Made by a program: the position numbers and the translations under genes
Origin: Dermatophagoides farinae
Taxonomy: Eukaryota > Arthropoda > Arachnida > Sarcoptiformes > Pyroglyphidae
NCBI RefSeq assembly: GCF_024713945.1
Contig: NC_134677.1
Location: 7,133,001 to 7,197,000, forward strand
Direction of reading: 5' to 3'
Length of the DNA stretch: 64,000 bases
Part shown: positions 1 to 22,500 of the stretch, in pieces
How the letters are laid out: each line of letters starts with the position of its first letter
Numbering within the stretch: position 1 is the stretch's first letter
Notes under the pieces: generated by a model
What the model was told of the DNA's origin: nothing
Databases searched by the model: none
Seen by the model: the letters and a program-made list of their open reading frames with translations, nothing else

Positions 1-1657
1 TCTTCTTCTGATTCATTTATATACACAACGGTATTCGATACACAAATCGTTTCGAATCAAATCGGTTGGGTGAGAACCCAAGATGCCAGACAAATAATGA
101 AAAAAAAATCCTACCACCAAGTTAATCGATAAAATCGGATCGAGTAGAGCAGGTTCATTTTTTCTATACGTACACCAGATACCAGAAAAAAAGGGTTACC
201 TAACACATACAGAAAACAGCGAAAGAGTGAGAGAGAGAACAGATTGAGGAAATCGGAATGAACAAAAAAAAATTCAATTTGATTGATTTGAATTTGGATT
301 CGGTTGTCGCCAAATAAGATGAAGCAACCAACAAAAAAAAAACTGAACCTGTTTTTTATAAACACAACATAAATACAGAACATGATGATGATGATGATGG
401 TTGGATTGTAGAAAAAAATGCCGAAAGGAAATTATTATCTCGACAGATGTAACCGGATAATGTGTCATACATTTGAACAATTATACAATTCATTAGAGGT
501 ATTGTGTGAAGAAAAAGTTTCGAATCCATTTGGTAGTTTGAATTTTTTTTTCTTCCAGTTTTTTTCCTGCTACCATATAATTGTGATTGGCAATTATGGT
601 TCCCCGTTTTTTTTTTTTTTTTTTTTGGTTTTGATATTATCAACGGTTACAATCAAACATTGAGCTACCAATCAGTTTATCAGGATTTTTGTATTTTTTT
701 TTTTTTAGAATTTTTATTTTCGTACTTTTATTTGGTTTGCTTTGTGAATTTTTGAAATGTCCGAGTTTTGTTTTTGCACCAAAAAAAAATTGTTTTGAAA
801 ATGTTTGGAAAAAATTATCACGAAAATTGATTAATTGATAAAGATTTTTGAAAAATTCATCATCTGAAAAAATGACAAATACCAGAAATGCCGAAAAAGT
901 AATAAACAAAAATGACAAAAGTAATTTCTATAGATTTATAAAAATTTTCTGAAAATGAAATGAATGAATATTTGTATGAATTATGCATAAAAGTTTGCTG
1001 ATAAATAAACAACAACAAATCAATTGTTATTTATGGATCGCTACATATATAACTTCCGGAATATAAGATATTAATTTTTTTGTTGTTTGAAAAATGATAA
1101 ACAACAACGCCACAGGTGTGTACTTAAATATAATTAGTTACCAAAGGATATATGGAAAAACAAAACAAACGGCAAAAAAAAACCAAAAAAACAAATGACA
1201 ATTTTATTCAAACATAATGTGAATGAATAAATGAAAATTTAAATACGCTATATAAGATGCAATGGACCGTCAACCTAATCATCTAACTTCAGCTATCAGT
1301 CCATTTCCTTGTTGGGGCTCTATTTTTAGAGTATAATCTGTTATTGATTGGACTACTACTGTTCTCTTTCTTCTTCCTCTCTTCTCATGATCATGATGAT
1401 GATGATGATGATTGAGACAAAACAAAAAAAAAGAGGAAGAACGCATAATTTGAAACAAAAAAGAAAAAAACTATGCTTAGCGTTAATTACACGATCAAAA
1501 TTATATAATCAAACAACAACAGTTATCATATAATAATATTAGAGCTACATAAATTGTTAGAATTAAAAAAAAAGAGTAAAATATTAACAGTATCTGGTCT
1601 GTTATAAATGGATTGATGATTGAATTTGTGTGGACAAAATTTTTCCTATGAACAAAG
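1..1657. other. non-coding A+T-rich stretch upstream of the first peptide gene
   Basis: I see no coding region here. Open frames are short and made of homopolymer and ATG/GAT repeat translations. Poly-T and poly-A runs are frequent (for example near 608-627). A TATA-like decamer GCTATATAAG at 1247-1256 on the plus strand is the only promoter-like signal; it is identical to one in front of the paralogous gene near 4.37 kb. Confidence 0.6.
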
Positions 1658-1665
1658 TATAAAAA
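1658..1665 (+). promoter_or_regulatory. candidate TATA box of secreted peptide gene A
   Basis: TATAAAAA lies about 210 bases before the ATG at 1874, so the 5' leader would be about 180 bases or would hold a small intron. A second candidate, GCTATATAAG at 1247-1256, is farther away but matches the paralog's TATA element exactly. I cannot decide between them. Confidence 0.35.
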
Positions 1666-1873
1666 CACCTTTCGAATGCTATACATTTTTATTATTCAAA
1701 CGAATTTAATTTATTTTGTTGATGAACATCAAAAATTGTTTTTTTTCACCGTTCCATAGTTGTTTTGGTGAAATAGTTTTTAAATCTGTTTTATTATTAA
1801 TTGTTTCAAACGAACAAAAAACAACGATAACTGTAACAACCAAAAATAACCTCAAAATAATAAAAAAAAAAAA

Positions 1874-2245
1874 ATGTTCAAATGTTGTAACAGAATGGCC
1901 ATTATTGGTTGTTGTATTGTAATGTACATCACTTTATCAATAATGATCATCACAATTACAGAAGCCGGTGACAAAAAAGGTGGCGATCTATTCATTATTG
2001 GTGGTAAATCCGGTTGTGGTCCAGCATTATTATATAAATCTAATGGTAAAAAAGGTGGCAAAAAAGGTGGTGGCGAAATGATCATCATAAATAATTGTGA
2101 AAGCCATAGCGAACCATCATATAGTTATGTACCATACCCAATTTATTCACATGGTGGTGGATATTCACATGGTGGTGGATATTCTCATGGCGGTGGTGGT
2201 GGTGGTGGTGGTGGTGGTGGTAGCTATTATCATCGACGCCGATGA
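1874..2245 (+). CDS. small secreted Gly/Lys/His-rich protein A (unrecognised family)
   Basis: Single open exon of 123 aa. I do not recognise the family. Residues about 8-31 form a hydrophobic signal peptide with likely cleavage after TEA. The mature part starts DKKGGD and holds two units of the form KKGG-D/E followed by a hydrophobic strand (LFIIGG, MIIINN). There are two cysteines (GCG and NNC), then a Tyr/Pro segment (YVPYPI), tandem YSHGGG repeats, a long glycine run coded by GGT repeats (about 2191-2221) and a basic end HRRR. The protein at 3906-4235 on the other strand has the same order of parts, so the two are paralogs. AATAAA signals follow the stop near 2270. A secreted structural, cuticular or defence peptide is possible, but function is unknown. 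Start chosen at the first ATG; the Met at codon 8 is an alternative. Confidence 0.72.
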   Translation: MFKCCNRMAIIGCCIVMYITLSIMIITITEAGDKKGGDLFIIGGKSGCGPALLYKSNGKKGGKKGGGEMIIINNCESHSEPSYSYVPYPIYSHGGGYSHGGGYSHGGGGGGGGGGGSYYHRRR

Positions 2246-2738
2246 TGATAGCCATAATAATGAAAAAAAAATAAATAAATCCTTAATTGGTACCAATCAA
2301 CATTACTTTATCATCATCATCATCATCAATATTTTAATCATAATCATCAAATAATCGTTGACGAAGAAAAAAATTCATCTTTAATGTGTTCTCGTTATTA
2401 TATATTTTGCCTCGTATATACACAACATAACAACAATATTTGATCATCATTCAAAATCATCGTTCATTCAGAAAAAAAAATATTTCTTCATAACATTTTC
2501 CAATCTTTTTTTTTGTTATTCATAAATTGATTACATTACCAACACAAACGGACACATATACACACCTATAAATTTTCAACATCATCATCATTTTATTATT
2601 GATAAACTTTTTTTTTGTTACATTTTTTTTTTGATTGAAATGAAAATTTTAATAATAATAATAATAATAATAAACACCCTTTGATATCATAAATTCAATA
2701 ATCATTTTGATCGATTACTGTGATGACGTTTTATTGCG

Positions 2739-2771
2739 GTGTGTGTGTGTGTGTAGCGTAATTTACTCAAT

Positions 2772-2806
<35 letters not shown>
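2739..2806. repeat. (GT)8 followed by (CA)16 microsatellite pair
   Basis: A 16-base GT run (2739-2754) is separated by 20 bases from a 32-base CA run (2775-2806). The two are complementary, so this is both a microsatellite and a possible hairpin or cruciform. Confidence 0.9.
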
Positions 2807-2807
<1 letters not shown>

Positions 2808-3899
2808 GTTAAATAACATTGATGAGAAAAGAAAAAAAAATTGCCCGATCCATTTGGAATGACAACAGATGCGCAAAGACCAATCGATTCACGTTGTCTT
2901 TCATTCATTGTTGCAGATATGGCCAAACCATCATCATCAGCATAAGCATCGTGTATACAAAGACAAGACCTGATTCGAAATAACAAAAAAAAAGAAGATG
3001 AGATCGATCAAATCGTCTTCGAGTTGACGAGGTCGACACATATGGTCATACAAACATACATACACATAAAATCAAATGAAAAGGTTACATGCAGGAAAAA
3101 TTTTTTCAGTTAATGTTGGATGCCAGGCCCATTTTGTACCAAACGAAAAAAAAACAATCGATCTTTGTCGCAACGGATGACATAGTACGTATATGATCAA
3201 AGGGTTCTTTTTTTTCTCTAAAATTTCTCGTTTCAATGTCATTCAATCGTCACTGGCATCATCATCTACTACTGTTGCAATTATTGATCAACTTTGACAC
3301 TAATTTACTTCGCACAAGTTGTCACATTGAATTTTAATAACAACAACAAAAAAAAACGGAACACACACATGCATAACAACAGAAAAAACCTCCGAAACTA
3401 TAGTCGACATTGATGGACGAGATGAGCATGATTATTATTATTATGATGATGATGATGTACGGATCTTTGAACGCCACCGAATAGATCATCATTAAAACAT
3501 GGATTTTGAATACGAATAAAAGAAAATTTTATTTTTTGTCATTATAACAAACATATAACAAAGCAACTCAAAGGAATAAAAGGATGAATAGATGAACGGG
3601 ATGTGAATCTGTCATTTTATTCATCCAAAAAAAAAAAAAAAAAAAATCTAAACTCGTTCAATTTGAAATGACAAACTTTTACTTTCAATAAAAAATGTGA
3701 AAAAAAATAAATCCCAGTGAGATAAAGAAATTTTGATTACAGATTTAAAAATATAACAACAACAAAGAAAAAAATGATCAAATATATTTAGATTAAGAGA
3801 GAGAGATAGAGAGGATATGTTTGCGTTGATCGATTTGATTATTGATGATTGGCTGCAATTAGTTGTATCCGTATTTTGACCCATCAAATCATATTTTTT

Positions 3900-3905
3900 T
3901 TTATT
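3900..3905 (-). terminator. polyadenylation signal abutting the stop codon of peptide gene B
   Basis: On the minus strand the stop codon TAG (3906-3908) is followed directly by AATAAA. If used, the 3' UTR would be only about 15-30 bases. Confidence 0.45.
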
Positions 3906-4235
3906 CTACAATTTACCCAAAATTGATCGCCGTTTACGTCTATAAACACCAGGATCAGCATGTCCACCACCATATCCACCTCCAATACCATAAGGTACCG
4001 GAATATAATGTGTATCTTCATGTTTACAATCACCACCTATGATCAATATATCGCCTTTTTTTCGATGACCAGTTTTGAGAAAAATATGTCCACAACCATG
4101 GCCACCATGGCCACCTTTAAGAATCAATATATCACCACCTTTACGGCTTGCATCAACGATGGTTAACATGTTGAAAAATGTTGAAAAGCCAAAACACAAC
4201 ACTAATAATATTATAATCTGTCTCATCATAATCAT
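3906..4235 (-). CDS. small secreted Gly/Lys/His-rich protein B, paralog of A
   Basis: A 109 aa open frame counted from the first in-frame ATG at 4235; the frame extends upstream to a GTG but has no earlier ATG. Signal peptide is MRQIIILLVLCFGF onward with cleavage near VDA. The mature protein begins SRKGGD and repeats the unit RKGGDILILKGG / RKKGDILIIGGD. It has a HGGHGCGH stretch, two cysteines at the same relative places as in protein A (GCG and GDC), a YIPVPYGIGGGYGGG segment matching YVPYPI plus glycine repeats of A, and a strongly basic end (RRKRR) that resembles a proprotein convertase site. Family unknown to me. The pair is convergent, about 1.7 kb apart. Confidence 0.72.
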   Translation of the reverse strand: MIMMRQIIILLVLCFGFSTFFNMLTIVDASRKGGDILILKGGHGGHGCGHIFLKTGHRKKGDILIIGGDCKHEDTHYIPVPYGIGGGYGGGHADPGVYRRKRRSILGKL

Positions 4236-4365
4236 AATGTTGATGATGATGATGGTAGTTTCACAATAATGGAATTTCAAACACCAAATTATAAAATCTA
4301 CACCGTTCACATTAATTTCGTTGTGTTATCTAAAATGAATCAATCACAACAAATGTGCACCATAA

Positions 4366-4375
4366 CTTATATAGC
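4366..4375 (-). promoter_or_regulatory. TATA box of peptide gene B
   Basis: GCTATATAAG on the minus strand, about 130 bases before the ATG at 4235. The presumed leader holds an ATG directly followed by TGA, a minimal start-stop upstream frame (about 4307-4312). Position and sequence fit a core promoter; the start site was not seen directly. Confidence 0.5.
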
Positions 4376-5147
4376 TTCAAAACAAAACGAAAATAACATT
4401 CCATGCTCTGAGAGAATTCAAAACATTCGATAAATGTCTGTTATCGTCAATATGATTATTGTTCGAATTCGAATTTCTTCAAATCAAAAAAAAAAAAAAA
4501 AAGTTATCAAAGAGAAAATCAATAAAATTAACAATGAATATTTTTTTCCAATCACTCAATTCATGCTTGACGAAGTTTTTTTCGTATTTGATCATTTTGG
4601 ATCATCGATTGTCAAAAAATGTCCTCGTACCAAATGGCGCCTATTCTTTATTAAATTTGAAATCGAATAAAGTCATCACCATCATCATCATCATCAACAA
4701 CAACAACATCGACATTGTGAAATGAATTTGATTATTTCCTGGATCAAAAGACAAAAAATCAAAAAAATTTTTTTTATTTTTTTTCGAAAACGATTTTGGA
4801 TCGATCGAAATGTTTGAAAATTGTTTGTCACACGTGTACCACCACAACCAGGATATGAATCATTGAATATTGTTTTTTAATTTCTTGTTTTACTTTAATA
4901 AAATATTAATATAATGCATAGATAATGTTCATGGTTGAAAGTGCACAAATGATATTACGTAATTGATTTTGATGTTTTTCAGTTGTCAAATAAGAAAAAG
5001 AAAACTATTTATTTTCCCATTGAGAACCCTGTAATTTGTTGCTACTGGTATGTTGTCGTTGTCAGAGTTTGTTTGTCGTTTGATCTCTAAAAAAAAGACA
5101 AAATGTTTCGTCGAAAAAAAGAGGAAGATATGGTTGATATAACCATT
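4376..5147. other. intergenic, low-complexity
   Basis: Between the promoter of peptide gene B and the stop of the ANKMY2-like gene I see only A+T-rich DNA with a poly-A run near 4487-4502 and ATC repeats near 4675-4695. No coding exon supported. Confidence 0.5.
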
Positions 5148-6449
5148 TCATTGTTCTATTGGCTGACAATTTTCCTGATCCTCGTCGCTATTTTGTTTTT
5201 TCACTTCACGATCATCATCATCATCATTATCTTTGTTGCATTTTTCATCAACTTCACAGCTATTTGGCTCAATCAAATCTGGCTTATCATCGTCAACTGT
5301 TAATAGCTGTGATTCAACTGGTTCTTGGCATACTCGTTTATGAACTGGCCAATGTAATCGCTGACAACGTTCATCGCAATATGTAGCTCGTTTACATTTT
5401 GAACATCGTTTGTTTGGATCAAATTCAGAACATGTGAAACAGGTATCGTTTTCTTCGATACCGATTGATTTGCCTAATATGGTCTGACTTAGAATAGATA
5501 ATGCGCTTGGTTCTTCACCAATTTCAATTGTAGACAATGTACGGACTAGTTGTTGAAACAATGCGTTCTCCTGATATGTATATGAACGAATGGCTTGTCG
5601 TAACAGTCGTTCCATATTTTCTGGAAAATTTTTAGCATTTGGTTTGAGCCAAAATTTTATGATATTATGAAATACTTTGCGAATTTCTTTCGAATCAAGT
5701 TCATTTTCTGTTGATGATTTTGCTTTTTGTAAGGCATTATTCAATAGATTGAATAGAAAATTCATATAATGAACTTTTAGGGATAACATTTCGTTCGGTT
5801 CGTTTGATCGAAACAATTTCTCATATATATGATCCATTACAATGTTGATCTTTTTCACTTCTTCAAATAAAGACAGATTCGATTCATAAAAATAGGCGAT
5901 TCGCACAGGATTCACAGCAACCAAACAAACTAACGAATGCATTGTTGATATGAATCGTATTGGGAGTCTAGGCTCTTTTTCTTGGCCATTGATTCTACTG
6001 TAATATTCGATATATTCACGAGGAATAAAATTATTTATAACCGATACTGATTGATGCTGACCAACAAATGCAGCCATTTGTGATGCATTACGACCAACAG
6101 TATTTTTCTGTTCGGTATCTGCTCCATTTTCAAGTAACAAATTAATAACTGCTTTATGACCACCAAGTGCAGCAAACATCAAAGACGTATATCGATGTTC
6201 ATGATCATTTTGATTAACATCGGCACCACGTTCAATCAGATATTTGGCAATCTCTAGATTGCCTCTATAGCAGGCATGCTGTAATGGACTCATACCATTC
6301 TCATCTTTACAATTGATGTTGATTGTTGATTCACCACGACTTATAAAATTAACCACTTTATCCAATGAATTTGAAGAAACAGCTTGAATTAATTGTGATT
6401 CATTTTCGGACAATGATGATGGCAATGGTGATGAGGACATTTTCGCCAT
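5148..6449 (-). CDS. ANKMY2: ankyrin repeat and MYND zinc finger protein (ANKMY2-like)
   Basis: Intronless 433 aa frame, close to the usual ~440 aa of ANKMY2. The N-terminal third carries ankyrin repeats (motifs GMSPLQHACYRGN, RYTSLMFAALGGHKAVINLL, GRNASQMAAFVGQH). Residues about 335-372 form a MYND zinc finger with CFTC, CSKC, YCDERCQ and HWPVHKRVC, so all eight ligands are present. The last 50 residues are acidic and Asp/Glu/Asn rich. In vertebrates ANKMY2 acts at the base of cilia with FKBP38 and adenylyl cyclases in Hedgehog signalling; whether that holds here is inference. ATG at 6449 is followed by MSSS after three codons; either Met could start. Confidence 0.85.
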   Translation of the reverse strand: MAKMSSSPLPSSLSENESQLIQAVSSNSLDKVVNFISRGESTININCKDENGMSPLQHACYRGNLEIAKYLIERGADVNQNDHEHRYTSLMFAALGGHKAVINLLLENGADTEQKNTVGRNASQMAAFVGQHQSVSVINNFIPREYIEYYSRINGQEKEPRLPIRFISTMHSLVCLVAVNPVRIAYFYESNLSLFEEVKKINIVMDHIYEKLFRSNEPNEMLSLKVHYMNFLFNLLNNALQKAKSSTENELDSKEIRKVFHNIIKFWLKPNAKNFPENMERLLRQAIRSYTYQENALFQQLVRTLSTIEIGEEPSALSILSQTILGKSIGIEENDTCFTCSEFDPNKRCSKCKRATYCDERCQRLHWPVHKRVCQEPVESQLLTVDDDKPDLIEPNSCEVDEKCNKDNDDDDDREVKKQNSDEDQENCQPIEQ

Positions 6450-7641
6450 TATTTGTTAATATCGAATAAACGATGATGATAATAATTCAATAACCAGTAT
6501 ATTGAATCTAAAACTAAAAATTAATTTTAGCTAAAAATGATCAATCCATATCAATGTTGTCAATATTATCGAGTTGTCAAGAGTTTATTTTCAGCTGAGG
6601 GACAACAAAATATTGACGCACAAGCGCAGATCAAACATTCAAAGATTTGTGCTTGTATGCATGTATGATGATGATGATCATCATCATTCAGAAATTAATT
6701 GGAAAAAACAATCGCCTGTAAACTGATGATCCATGATCGTTAAAAAAAACCAATTTAGGTTGGAAAAAAAGGCCTTTGAAAACAAAACATAAAATAGAAA
6801 ACAAAACAAAAAAGTTGGAAGTTCATAAGGAAGATATTTTTATTGATTGAATTTAGTTCTTCATACACAACATAATCCAAGATCGAACAATAAATTAATT
6901 AGTCCATTGATAATTTCCGATTAAACAAGTCTATATTTTTTTTGTTGTAATAATAAAAAATAATATATACTATATATATACAAAAATACAATATACTTTT
7001 CCATTTGATGAAATAAACAATCGATTAATTAATTTTGAAGCAAAATCATTTTCACCATTTTAAATGCGCAGATATAAACGATGCCACCACAACGAAAAAA
7101 AAACAAACAAAAACGAAGCGTTGAATTGAATCAATTATTAATTAAAATATTGTAATTGTAATCAATAATAATAATAATGACAAAATAAAATAAAAAAAAT
7201 CATTGATTCGATCGATATTCAAAATATTGTTGCTAAGGAATTATTTTTCAAAGTAATAAAAAGAAAAAAAATCCATATGAAATAAACATATCGCGTATAC
7301 ACAATTTTAGAGAAAAAAAATGAAAAATAATGTCCTGTGTGAAAAATTTTAGTTTAAAATTTCAAAATGCAAAATAATTAGCAAAAAAAAAATAAGGACA
7401 TATTTTGCATCGTTGAAATGAATTTATGAACAAATGTATAACCAGTGAATATATATCGACAAAAATTTCCATTCGATTTCCAGATGATTATGATTGTTGA
7501 ATATTTACAAAAAAAAACGAACCAAAAAAAAAAATTTTCAAATAATAAACTTGATGCAATATTCATAAATCGAGATCGATGATATTTTCATTTTTGTTCA
7601 GTTATATTTAGCAATTTGATTGTTGTACTTTGATGTAGTGT
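6450..7641. other. intergenic between ANKMY2 and CNOT1
   Basis: A 1.2 kb stretch between two genes on the same strand, so it should contain the ANKMY2 promoter and CNOT1 3' UTR. It is A+T rich with ATG/ATC runs near 6666-6690. No coding exon supported. Confidence 0.5.
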
Positions 7642-10600
7642 TTATGTTGATCGTGAAAAATATTTTTCAATCTCCGGAACACATTTGATGAAATTATGTT
7701 CCAATAATTTGTAATTAGGATTACGAAATAATTCATTAATCAAATATTCGATTCCCCATGGATGTGGTCGTTGAGTGATGTAACGTTCAAGTAATACTCG
7801 AACAATTTGTTCACGAATATGTTCATTATTTTCTTTGAACAATGTTAAAAGTAGACATATAAATAAAAGAGTTTCATTGTTGGGATAACGTAGATGATCA
7901 ACCATCGAATTGATTAGTATATATCGACCTTTTTATAGAAGCAAATGTGAGAAGAATTTCAATAAATTAAAAATTTAATTATTACCTTGAGAATCAAAGT
8001 TCATCAACAAGTGTTGGAAAATTTCGAGATGAACCGAATTATGAATTGAATTAATAGTCACTGATTTGTTGGTCTGAATGGCCGATATGCCAATATATAG
8101 CGTTAAAGCATTAATCAGTGTAGTGAAACTGGATTGCTTCTCGGCATTCAATAGATTTGCGCTTAAAGCCTGAGCTAAATCAGTGAGAAAATTGCTGGGA
8201 GTACGATGAAGCAGATAGCTTTCCAATTCTTTTTGAAAATATTGTAACTGATCGCACAGAATAGTGCTTGAAATTCGAACAGGTGGTATAATTTCATAAA
8301 GATTGTCCACTTTGAGATTTGAAACATCAGGTATATTGATTGGATTAGCACTCAGAATAATGTTTCTAAGTTGCACAGCTCGAATAGGAATGATGTCACA
8401 CAAATTATAACAATATTCACATAAAAATTCAGGAAAATCATGAAACAAAATTAGAAACAATTTCAATGTACCCTGAATAATAATGAAAAAAAAAAAATTA
8501 ATTTAACAATTTTTGAATAAAAAAAATGTTTACCTTGTAAAGTTCCATGTTTGTATTTACTATGAATGAATCCATATTCTGCAAGATTGGCTTCAAGAAA
8601 AGTAAGAGGTCAGTCAATAGAGCACAATAGATGGGCCATGTTTTGTGATTAATTTGATGACTGTTATCTAAACACTTTCCCATGAAAATTCGATGTGAAA
8701 TAAAATCTAGCCATGCAAACGTAAATGATGGCATTTTTGATGGACACATTTGATGCAAAAAATTACAATAATTTCGAACCAGGTGAAACTTGAAAACTTC
8801 GAATAGATTGTCATTACTGACAATTAATTCCTGAAAGCCAAAATTCAATGGCGAATAGAAAAATTCGATAAAAATCGATAGCATTATTCGGTAGTATGTC
8901 AATGAAAAAAAATCTTTATGATGAATTTCCTGATCACGGTAAGCTGTGTTTGTCAATATGGTCAAGATACGGATTAGAAATTGAAATTTTTGATCCAAAT
9001 TTCCTTGGTTGCCACTTTGTTTTATGAACAATATGACCAATACAGAATACGAATCAATCAATTCATAGCATTTAAGATGGATATTATTCAATGGAAATGT
9101 TGGATGTTGCACAGCGTATGAAATAATTTGATAGCATCGTTCGACACAGAATTCGAGAAAAAATTTAAAAAAATTTGCAATCGATTCATCGTTTTTGAGA
9201 ATGCCCTATACAACAAGAAAAAAAAGATATTTATTTCATATTCAAGTCAAAGAATAAAATCTGTTTTACCTGTGCATTCATATTCTTCACAACAACAGGG
9301 AAAGAATTGTTAATATCTTTAGAATTGTAATATCGTATCCAATCCTTTACGATTGTTTCGAGAGCTGAACCATCCATCATTTCATTATTCGATTGATTAG
9401 GTATATTGATTCGTGCCAATGAAAGAATATGTTTTAGTTCTATGATTAACTGAGTATTGGTAGGACTCTGTTGATTCATTTTCATTGCGACGATTCGTTG
9501 TAATAAATCCAATGTTGTAGGAAAATGATTTGCACTAATGTTGCCTAGATAATATTTGAGGAAATTCAAAATCATCGGAAAACTGGTGGAACCATTTTCT
9601 AGTATCTGATAGAATTCATTGTCGAGAAAATTGAGGTTGATCAATTCTTGACGATTAAGAATGTCAAAAAGATCATCCGGAAACGTGGTATTCATTGCTA
9701 CCCAATGTTCAAGAACAGAACGGGTTACATTCAATGTTGTGAAACGAAGATTATAAGCTCGTTGATCGGCAAGAGCTTTCAAAAGTATGAGGTAAAAATC
9801 CCGTGCACGGGATATGACAGCCAAATCGGTGACACCAGTTTCAGCATTCAACAACAATTCTCTGAGACCATTAATGACATTCTTGATCAAACTGACAGCC
9901 GTTGCTTGATCACGAGGATTTTGCTTGCAAACTTTCAGAATTTCCAATACCTGATGCATTGCTTCTGTTGTGTAATGGACATATTCAAATTCTTGAATCA
10001 ATTCACTCAGATGTTTGATTAATTTATCATAAATAACAACAAAAGCATCTACATGAACTTGATTTCCCTGAACGTTCATGGCATTATGTTCATTATGGAA
10101 CCAACGGATAGTTGTGTGAGGAGGCGGACAAAACGTTGACACTCGGATAATTGGCAGTTTTAGCTGGTGTGTTATCCATTGGCGTATAGAATGATGATTG
10201 ATTTGTACTAAAACCGGCAATATTTCGTCCCATTTCTTCATAAATTTGCAATTGTTTTAGACTTATGGATGAACTTTTCTTATTACCATCTGCTGTGATT
10301 TTCTGTCGTGCTTCAAAATCTGGTTTCATTCGTTTATCTAATTCTTCGATGGCTCGTTCGATGCATGTTTTCTGAACAAAACACACGCACAATTCCAAAT
10401 TATCGTTTATCAGTCTTTGAATGGTCGAATCAATCAATTCTTTAGTCACGTTCATCATTGGTTTAGCCTGAAAATAGGTAAGCAATGACATTTGTATTCG
10501 ATTAAGCAACGGTTCTTGAGTGTTGATCAATGAATATCCTGCAACTAGTGAACGCATCATTTTATGGGCTGCATTACGCATTAACTCAGCATTAGATTCA

Positions 10601-19597: not shown

Positions 19598-22500
19598 TTA
19601 GTTTCCAAGACAAACACACCCACAACCGGATGGACATTCTTCATGTTTTTGAAACCAGTCATTCATATGATTAGTATGGCCACCGTGGCCACATTTCATA
19701 CAATGATTGGTGGCACCTTTTACAGGTAAACGGCATATAGTACAGATTAATGATATTCGATTACAGTGGCTACAAATGTAATTGGAGCAAAGTTTTTGCC
19801 TATCCTTACAGGATTGAGTAAAACATTCATTAACAAATGAAACTATATGTGATTGATCATCATATAACATTTTCGATTCGATAGTCTTCAAAAGTTGTGC
19901 GCGTTTTTTGATCAATTTCCATCGATACAGAATGTCGAGATAAATTTTTTTATAATAATCATATTCAAGTACTAATTTTGAATCAAATGTCCTACAGATT
20001 ATAGTCGATTAAAAAAAATTTTTTTATAAAATAAAAATCGGTAAAAATAGATCTTGTATACTTACGTTTCAATACGTTCATTTAAATTAGATTCCTCATT
20101 ACTGTCGGTGCTGGATTTATCACTTTTGTTTTGATTAATATTCATTTCTTGATTTGACGAACAACTACTTGTTCTTATACGATTTTTTCCTGTTACATCT
20201 CCTCGTGCATTGACTAAACACAAATGAAAATTGATTTAAATAAAATTAATTTTATAAAATTTTTTTTCAAAATTACTTATAGCCCATTCGGTGTCCAGTT
20301 GATTGGACATTTCATCTTGGGTTGATAAATTGTAATTGATTCGGGGTTGATGTTTTCTCGGAACAAACGAAGGAACGTGTTCTTGCCAACTAAGTTTACA
20401 TGAACTTATCACGCTTGAAATCATTGCAACTGTTTGAATATCATTACATTTCAATACATAATGTTCAATCCTTTATATATAAAAAAAAGTTAAATTAGCT
20501 CCGAAAAATTCCTCATTGAACTTACATAGATTGTATCATTTTTCCACCAAATGGATGTCTGGACCAATGTGAATTTAGCTCTTCAGAAGATATGAAACGA
20601 TTTTTCAGATAAATCTCGGCGGACAATCGAACCAGATTCCATGTTTGTTGAAGATCACGACGGCCAGAAGTGGCGGCAATTTTTGCATTCATCTCACAAA
20701 AGCTTATTATGTTACCTCTCGGTGATGGTATCAGATATTGTTCGGCTAATTGTCGAGAAATCGGTAACAATTTCGTGACACTAAATACCATTACAGGACC
20801 ACAAAGATTGACGGTCTTTTTTTCTTGATATTGATGAATTTTACGAAATGATCGATGTTTTTTTGATGAATCAATATAGAATGATGAGATTGATGGAATA
20901 TTATCTTTAACACTCATATGATTCGAATTATAAGCTCGCACATGATTGTCCAGATAGGATGATAACGCTGATAATGATCGCGGTGTATATTCTGTAGGTA
21001 CATTCATCTGTTCCAGATGTGGTGGCCGTCCAAAACAGACAAGAATTTCCGATGAACAAAATCGTGCTCCGGATGTACGAGGAAATGGAACCGATGCATC
21101 CAGATAGCTAACATATTCATGAGAGGTGAGTATATCCAATACGGTAGGTTGAGGTTTAATGGTATTTACATTGTTCAGATTTAATGACGTTGATTCTTCG
21201 ATAAGATGAACAAATTGCCGAAGACATTTTTCCAGACAATTGCGATTATGTTGCACAAGAAATGTAGCTGTCGATTGTAGATCAGTGAGAATTTCTTTTT
21301 TAGTTTTATCATCCAATGATTTGACCGTATGCGAATTTTGTATCGGTGTATCATTTAGAAATGAAAACACTGGTATTGTGTTGGGATAATTAATAGGAAA
21401 GAATATTCTCAATCGACATATGATTGATGATTTTAACGATGCTATACAAGTACGTTTATTAACATTAAGTTCTTCGATCATTAGATTAGGAATGTTCGAA
21501 TTAAATAGAGAGAATTCCTGTTTCAAACTGAACACCTTATCGGATTTATCTTCAAAATTATCGAATTCACTTTTGTTTGATTCACATTTCTCCGACATTG
21601 GTGATGATAGATCACTAGATTTGCTTAGGTCAAGATTTGAAAATTTGGCAGATTGAGTATCGAAATCGGATGATATATCCTCTGTGTGATCATGTTGTTG
21701 ATCTTCCGAAAGCGAATCATGAATGTTTGCGCACAAATTCTTTAGGATTAACTTTCCACATTCTAAAAGTATTATCGCGAGCCCATGTGATCAATTCATA
21801 ATCATCCGAATCTATCATGTTCCAACCGAAATCAAGCACAACATCAAGATGTCCAGCAAATGAATGTACTGGCTGATCGAGTGAATTGATTTTCCACATC
21901 CAAAGTGAATTATTCTCACCGGTTCGTCGCATTTGTGGCACCAATGATGTCAACAATCCATTTCCAAATGGTGTATAACGAACTTTCCAAATGGGTAAAC
22001 CTGTTGTCATGTGATATTCACTTTTTCCTTTGCTACAATTTGTTAAATCCCACAACTATGCAACAGAATAATCGAAAATTAATTACGATAATCCAGCCTA
22101 AAATTATATACTGACTTTGATACTTCCATCCTGAGAACAGGTCAAAAATTTATTCTCATAGAATGGACTCCAATCGATTCCGGTTATTTTCGCTAAATAA
22201 GTTGATACATAATGCAATGGCATGTTACTTTTCTGGTAAACAAAAAAAAAAATAATCGAGAATAAATAAATGAATATCGACTATAGTTAAATAGATTTGA
22301 ATTGTTTTTTTTATGAAATTCACCCTTTTATCCCAGATTCGAACATCTCCTTCATGACTAGTTGCCAGGATATTTTCGTTTATTTTTGACCATTTGATCT
22401 GAGATGCTCCCGAAATCGAATGCATCAGATATATGGGCTTCCTTGTTTCCCTGAGATCCCAGATATAAATGTAATTATCAAACGAGGAACTTGCCAAAAT

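Follow-up and report, generated by a model that had tools for sequence, protein, structure and literature searches.

A two-cysteine core shared by four small, putatively secreted proteins of Dermatophagoides farinae

The window analysed here, a stretch of 64,000 nucleotides, corresponds to C1:7133001-7197000 of a 62,435,336-base genome in 22 contigs (G+C about 30%). Two genes near its start, A and B, each consist of a single open frame running from ATG to stop; they lie on opposite strands and converge tail to tail with the lengths given in the preliminary description, and a gap of 1,660 bases separates them (Table 1). The hexamer AATAAA occurs 24 bases past the stop of A and immediately past the stop of B. 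The frame of B stays open upstream to 4325, and the start used here is the one chosen in the preliminary description. An ankyrin-MYND protein adjoins gene B, and two frames further along match the CCR4-Not component Not1; these neighbours have no bearing on the pair. An Rfam scan of positions 1 to 8000 of the window gave no match. TATA boxes are found upstream of all five frames A to E and were rejected as gene evidence, as a rough estimate predicts one in every 330 bases or so for DNA this rich in A and T.

Table 1. Coordinates of the genes, their parts and related frames. Positions are those of the window unless a contig (C1, C3, C7) is given.
Feature	Position	Strand	Length	Remarks
Gene A	1874..2245	+	123 aa	Stop 2243-2245
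A, signal-peptide-like hydrophobic leader	1874..1966	+	31 aa	Cleavage after ..TITEA, placed by eye
A, conserved core	1964..2161	+		Residues 31-96 as aligned; two cysteines; used in the profile control
A, low-complexity tail	2144..2242	+		Overlaps the core end; GGGYSH repeats, 11-glycine run, HRRR end
Gene B	3906..4235	-	109 aa	Stop 3906-3908
B, signal-peptide-like leader	4149..4235	-	29 aa	Cleavage after ..IVDA, placed by eye
B, conserved core	3975..4154	-		Residues 28-87 as aligned; two K-G-D units, two cysteines
B, C-terminal tail	3909..3974	-		GGGH, then RRKRR cluster
Ankyrin-repeat and MYND-finger protein	5148-6449	-	433 aa	Single open frame
Not1 match	7642-8466	-		Two open frames, probably two exons of one gene
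Gene C	C1:7103865		93 aa	Paralog; shares the contig of A, at a distance of about 31 kb
Gene D	C7:796127		145 aa from internal ATG, 187 aa from first ATG	Paralog, other contig
Frame E	C3:3416843-3417067		75 aa	Leader, RSGGDVIILGG, GH repeats, RRR end
Frames G1 and G2	C1:8796001-8806000 (C1:8.80 Mb)			Divergent pair; glycine-rich, leaders, K/S-x-GD-x-III-GG start, later VPIPI part

An open frame by itself means little in this DNA, since 52 frames of at least 40 aa overlap the first 8 kb of the window. This number, together with the coincidence of the glycine run of A with a microsatellite, would favour the reading that the two genes are no more than low-complexity frames left open by chance where the DNA is rich in A and T. 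The whole genome was searched for relatives. The search with B returned four places, B itself, C (E = 3.7e-8), D (2.0e-4) and A (1.45e-3), and that with residues 1 to 105 of A returned A, C (4.2e-13), D (3.9e-12) and B (1.64e-3), together with a weak place at C1:8801611 (0.033) that corresponds to frame G2. With C as the query we obtained C, D (8.8e-17), A (3.2e-12) and B (8.2e-8) and no others at E<=10, and a consensus-like query again found A, B, C and D and no others. The direct match between A and B is weak by itself in both directions; at least four members were found in the genome. A search of viral contigs with A gave nine candidates, with no relative among them, while one of the 57 candidates obtained with C in prokaryote genomes, a stretch of 21 residues in an archaeal MAG, was taken as a chance match.

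Leave-one-out profiles, in which three cores were used to score the fourth, gave A 53.7, B 35.7, C 67.7 and D 64.5 bits, the core limits having been picked with all four sequences in view, which helps these scores a little. The top scores of the shuffled controls were 14.3, 16.7, 18.1 and 14.8 bits, respectively (20,000 shuffles per core, of which 19,910 to 19,995 got a score). Codon alignments of the core showed that pS was higher than pN in all six pairs, from 0.79 against 0.29 for C and D to 0.45 against 0.41 for A and D and 0.44 against 0.41 for A and B; the margin is narrow in these last two pairs, and some of the six are close to saturated with synonymous differences. Differing codons are used at 8 of the 13 invariant residues of the core. 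The family is more than chance because its paralogs are found genome-wide, its leave-one-out profiles score far above the shuffles and pS is higher than pN in every pair. A chance origin of the shared core is refuted by these same three results, and frames that are not genes are scarcely credible as an account of four paralogs on two contigs. To judge from their sequences, A, B, C and D are paralogs and form a real small family, as had been suggested from the first two.

Alignment of the four proteins showed the order of parts that had been described for A and B: a hydrophobic leader, a K-x-G-D-hydrophobic unit, GC(G), a second, K-rich G-D/E-hydrophobic unit, the second cysteine, Y..PY and a G/Y/H-rich tail. 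The layout of the core of A is KKGGD-LFII-GG .. GCG .. ALLYK .. KKGGGEMIII-NNC .. YVPYPIY. The leaders of all four, judged by eye, are hydrophobic and signal-like, which agrees with the signal peptides proposed earlier. Thirteen columns of the core are invariant (K, D, I, G, G, C, K, K, G, C, Y, P, Y). Both cysteines are invariant in the four members, no other cysteine is present in any mature chain when the cleavage sites are placed by eye, and the number of residues between the two, also counted by eye, is 26 in A, 21 in B, 21 in C and 23 in D. Since these are the sole cysteines of each mature chain and both are invariant, the formation of one disulfide, within or between chains, is likely. 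Secreted metal-binding proteins, in which cysteine, histidine and aspartate residues in the core coordinate the metal, would also account for the constancy of both cysteines and of one aspartate, and at least one histidine occurs in each of the four cores. However, there is no invariant histidine column, every invariant residue being K, D, I, G, C, P or Y, and metal binding is to us very improbable.

The duplicated internal unit of the preliminary description was recovered unevenly. Scores as high as that of the duplication were reached by none of 1000 shuffles for B, by 8 of 1000 for A and by 96 of 1000 for C, whereas in D the duplication was not recovered, another pair coming out on top with 155 of 1000 shuffles as high. 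The duplication is thus clear only in B, being fair in A and weak in C, and it is unseen in D. In every member the cysteines enclose a further hydrophobic stretch (ALLY, HIFL, KLIY, QLLM), and three beta-prone stretches would fit the alignment better than the two proposed before. AlphaFold2 gave no usable model for the mature chains of A and B (mean pLDDT of 38.6 and 34.7), an outcome that says little about the fold when each alignment holds two sequences, A and B, with C and D left out.

The tails diverge in length and composition while the core is kept across the four paralogs. The tail of A consists of GGGYSH, polyglycine and RRR, that of B has RRKRR, that of C has GGY stretches and that of D has PSY repeats and acidic residues. 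Glycine makes up 33% of mature A, 26% of B, 24% of C and 17% of D. At the DNA level, the tail of A contains an 18-base repeat (2144-2196) and a TGG repeat (2188-2221); the latter, a GGT microsatellite, encodes most of the 11-glycine run, and its length may differ between individuals. The arginine cluster noted earlier is present in A and B and is not a family trait, as it is lacking in C and D. The charge, calculated as K+R minus D+E, is +6 for A, +8 for B, +2 for C and -7 for D, which is acidic. The positive charge and the arginine-rich ends of A and B would suit glycine-rich antimicrobial or immune peptides, that is, cationic secreted peptides whose G/H/R-rich tails act on microbial membranes, and the accessible part of a review reports glycine-rich antimicrobial peptides in arachnids (PMC11772090). 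However, the conserved feature is the core and not the cationic character, and no Pfam family was found above the cut-off. Antimicrobial action is made less likely by this lack of charge conservation, and we hold it to be decidedly unlikely.

The start of the core was also looked for elsewhere in the genome. The pattern GD-x-hydrophobic(3)-GG was found at six places, against one for the reversed control. Three of these places are leader-bearing glycine-rich frames (E, G1 and G2), which have the K/R-x-GD-x-III-GG start in common with A to D, one lies inside an internal glycine-rich frame and two are in other frames. G1 is one open frame, while the two parts of G2 lie in different frames, which implies an intron. 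As in A to D, the motif of E, G1 and G2 comes straight after the leader and is followed by G/H/Y-rich sequence. The two core cysteines and the second unit are absent from all three; past the leader, no cysteine occurs in E or in the read parts of G2, and the one in the G1 frame is outside the motif. The family profile gave 7.9 bits for E, 18.2 bits for G1 and 11.1 bits for G2. Since the best shuffles score much the same, homology with A to D is unproven, and convergence could have produced the start that they share. A genome search with the first 52 aa of G1 returned G1, B (0.097) and a place on contig C3 with an internal stop (0.053), while E and the second part of G2 each matched itself only. 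A looser pattern was found at 21 places, against two for the control; six were already known, eight are one short repeat and seven are new. The short repeat reads GGYGACATTATYATCATATTTGG (for example at C2:5950822 and C2:5953185) and is perhaps part of a dispersed repeat. We propose, tentatively and as an unlikely possibility, that K-G-(G)-D-hydrophobic-GG could be a mite self-assembly module placed immediately after the signal peptide of several glycine-rich matrix proteins that differ in their other parts; in A to D two cysteines and a second unit accompany it, and E, G1 and G2 lack these. It would then be a chelicerate counterpart of insect cuticle motifs and mark a new class of matrix proteins.

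Comparison of the proteins with known families showed nothing above the Pfam cut-off for A to D, the sole match at E<=10 being DUF3976 in the leader of A (E = 1.4, 9.9 bits against a cut-off of 25), and no NCBIfam match for A to E, as expected of a prokaryotic library. A profile search of the PDB gave five sequences at E<=10, of which the best was a designed TIM barrel (8.5e-6) and the others were three designed TIM barrels (0.002-0.0044) and one ligase (1.7). The best stretches of these matches span 11 to 37 of the 60 profile positions, four of the five sequences have no stretch that passes by itself, and the matches were attributed to K/G/D/I composition. The Rebers-Riddiford domain of CPR proteins (PF00379, Chitin_bind_4) had no match at E<=10 in A to D, while the model found at least 24 places elsewhere in the genome. 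Likewise, the domain of the CPAP proteins and peritrophins (PF01607, CBM_14) had no match in A to D and at least 73 places elsewhere. CBM_14 has six cysteines, against two in mature A to D. Neither model had a match in any of 14 control genomes of unstated kind, and the counts obtained here are fitting for an arthropod. TWDL and CPF are among the cuticle families that have Pfam models, and no domain of these or other such families was found in A to D. The CPCFC cuticular proteins resemble A to D in being small and secreted with few cysteines; they differ in their C-x5-C repeats, the spacing in A to D being C-x(21-26)-C. A cuticle gene cluster was considered and rejected: among the matches listed, neither Chitin_bind_4 nor CBM_14 lies within 200 kb of A to D, the nearest being about 224 kb from D.

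We favour, with a probability of about 0.5, the interpretation that A to D are secreted structural proteins of the extracellular matrix, for example of the cuticle, that contain glycine, tyrosine and histidine. This interpretation, which is plausible and not startling, is favoured by a core that is kept while the tails diverge, with profile scores of 36-68 against 14-18 bits and pS above pN throughout, by the invariant columns that include both cysteines, by the 17-33% of glycine in the mature chains and by the start shared with E, G1 and G2. The 70 hypothetical cuticular proteins (CPH) reported in the accessible part of the study of D. pteronyssinus (PMC12105342) lead us to expect a secreted class of this sort in the genus. 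On the other side stand the missing known cuticle domain and cuticle-gene neighbours, the two cysteines, which are unusual for cuticle proteins, and the acidic character of D with its glycine content below 20%. A signal peptide would direct the secretion of each chain. The conserved segment of about 55-65 residues, in which short hydrophobic stretches are framed by K-G-G-D and G-G turns, would self-associate as a beta-sheet and serve as the assembly segment; its two cysteines would be joined in one disulfide, either inside a single chain or from chain to chain. Flexibility and tyrosine or histidine cross-linking sites would come from the variable tail, in which G/Y/H or P/Y are abundant. The destination would be a matrix outside the cells, for instance that of cuticle, egg shell or glandular secretion.

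A to D could also be non-cuticular products of a gland, whether seminal, salivary or other, such as components of a secretion that is viscous or adhesive. The accessible part of the D. pteronyssinus study reports that, of 521 small-protein genes, 157 are male-enriched and 33 show the reverse profile (PMC12105342), and tick glycine-rich proteins occur in cement according to the part of the review consulted (PMC11772090). However, the small proteins of the former study, as described there, have up to about 100 aa, a length below which only C (93 aa) falls, and the sequence gives no pointer to sex or gland; we regard this origin as unlikely. If A to D are instead matrix proteins, they belong to a part of chelicerate biology in which cuticular and matrix proteins are poorly catalogued and in which, as stated in the accessible text of PMC12105342, new chelicerate-specific families are very likely still to be found. 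A profile of the core would provide a way to look for such proteins in house dust, scab and scabies mites, and small secreted mite proteins, if abundant, would be worth checking as allergens. The family would leave general concepts unchanged.

The closest comparison is with the CPH of D. pteronyssinus. In the accessible text, known families account for 66 putative cuticular protein genes, listed beside the 70 CPH, which are secreted, without domains and mostly short (PMC12105342). The selection of CPH described there used a signal peptide and a predicted extracellular location, no assigned domain, first-decile expression and at least one cuticle-like trait, such as glycine density, PV/PY pairs or tandem repeats, the absence of mature cysteines being another of the traits listed (PMC12105342). 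A to D are like them in bearing leaders that look signal-like by eye, in being mostly short, in having no domain assigned by Pfam or NCBIfam and in their glycine-dense or PY-rich low-complexity parts (A, B and C are glycine-dense, A has a tandem repeat and D has repeated PSY). They are unlike them in that each has two mature cysteines, whereas 89% of the CPH have none in that account (PMC12105342). Counterparts of A to D may already be among the CPH. Homologues of DFP2, the D. farinae most abundant protein 2, number 32 among the CPH as given in that text (PMC12105342) and 81 in Psoroptes ovis, against the four members found here. The accessible parts of two papers that name DFP2-like and cuticle proteins in other mites make no mention of the A to D pattern (PMC6806590, PMC4930577). 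It is likewise not described in the literature consulted on mite glycine-rich, cuticle, antimicrobial and DFP2 proteins, supplementary tables aside, and six motif strings were found in no open paper searched. The statement of the preliminary description that A and B belong to no named family thus holds for the libraries and open papers searched, and within these the core of A to D appears to be undescribed. Glycine-rich proteins are defined, in the accessible part of the review of those of ticks and other arachnids, by a glycine content of 20% or more (PMC11772090). Mature A, B and C lie above this value and have GGY or GGGY stretches, whereas D does not reach it, and the hallmark of the four is the conserved core rather than a glycine repeat. 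The kind of protein is familiar, that of the glycine-rich secreted proteins of arthropods, and the distinct part is the two-cysteine core.
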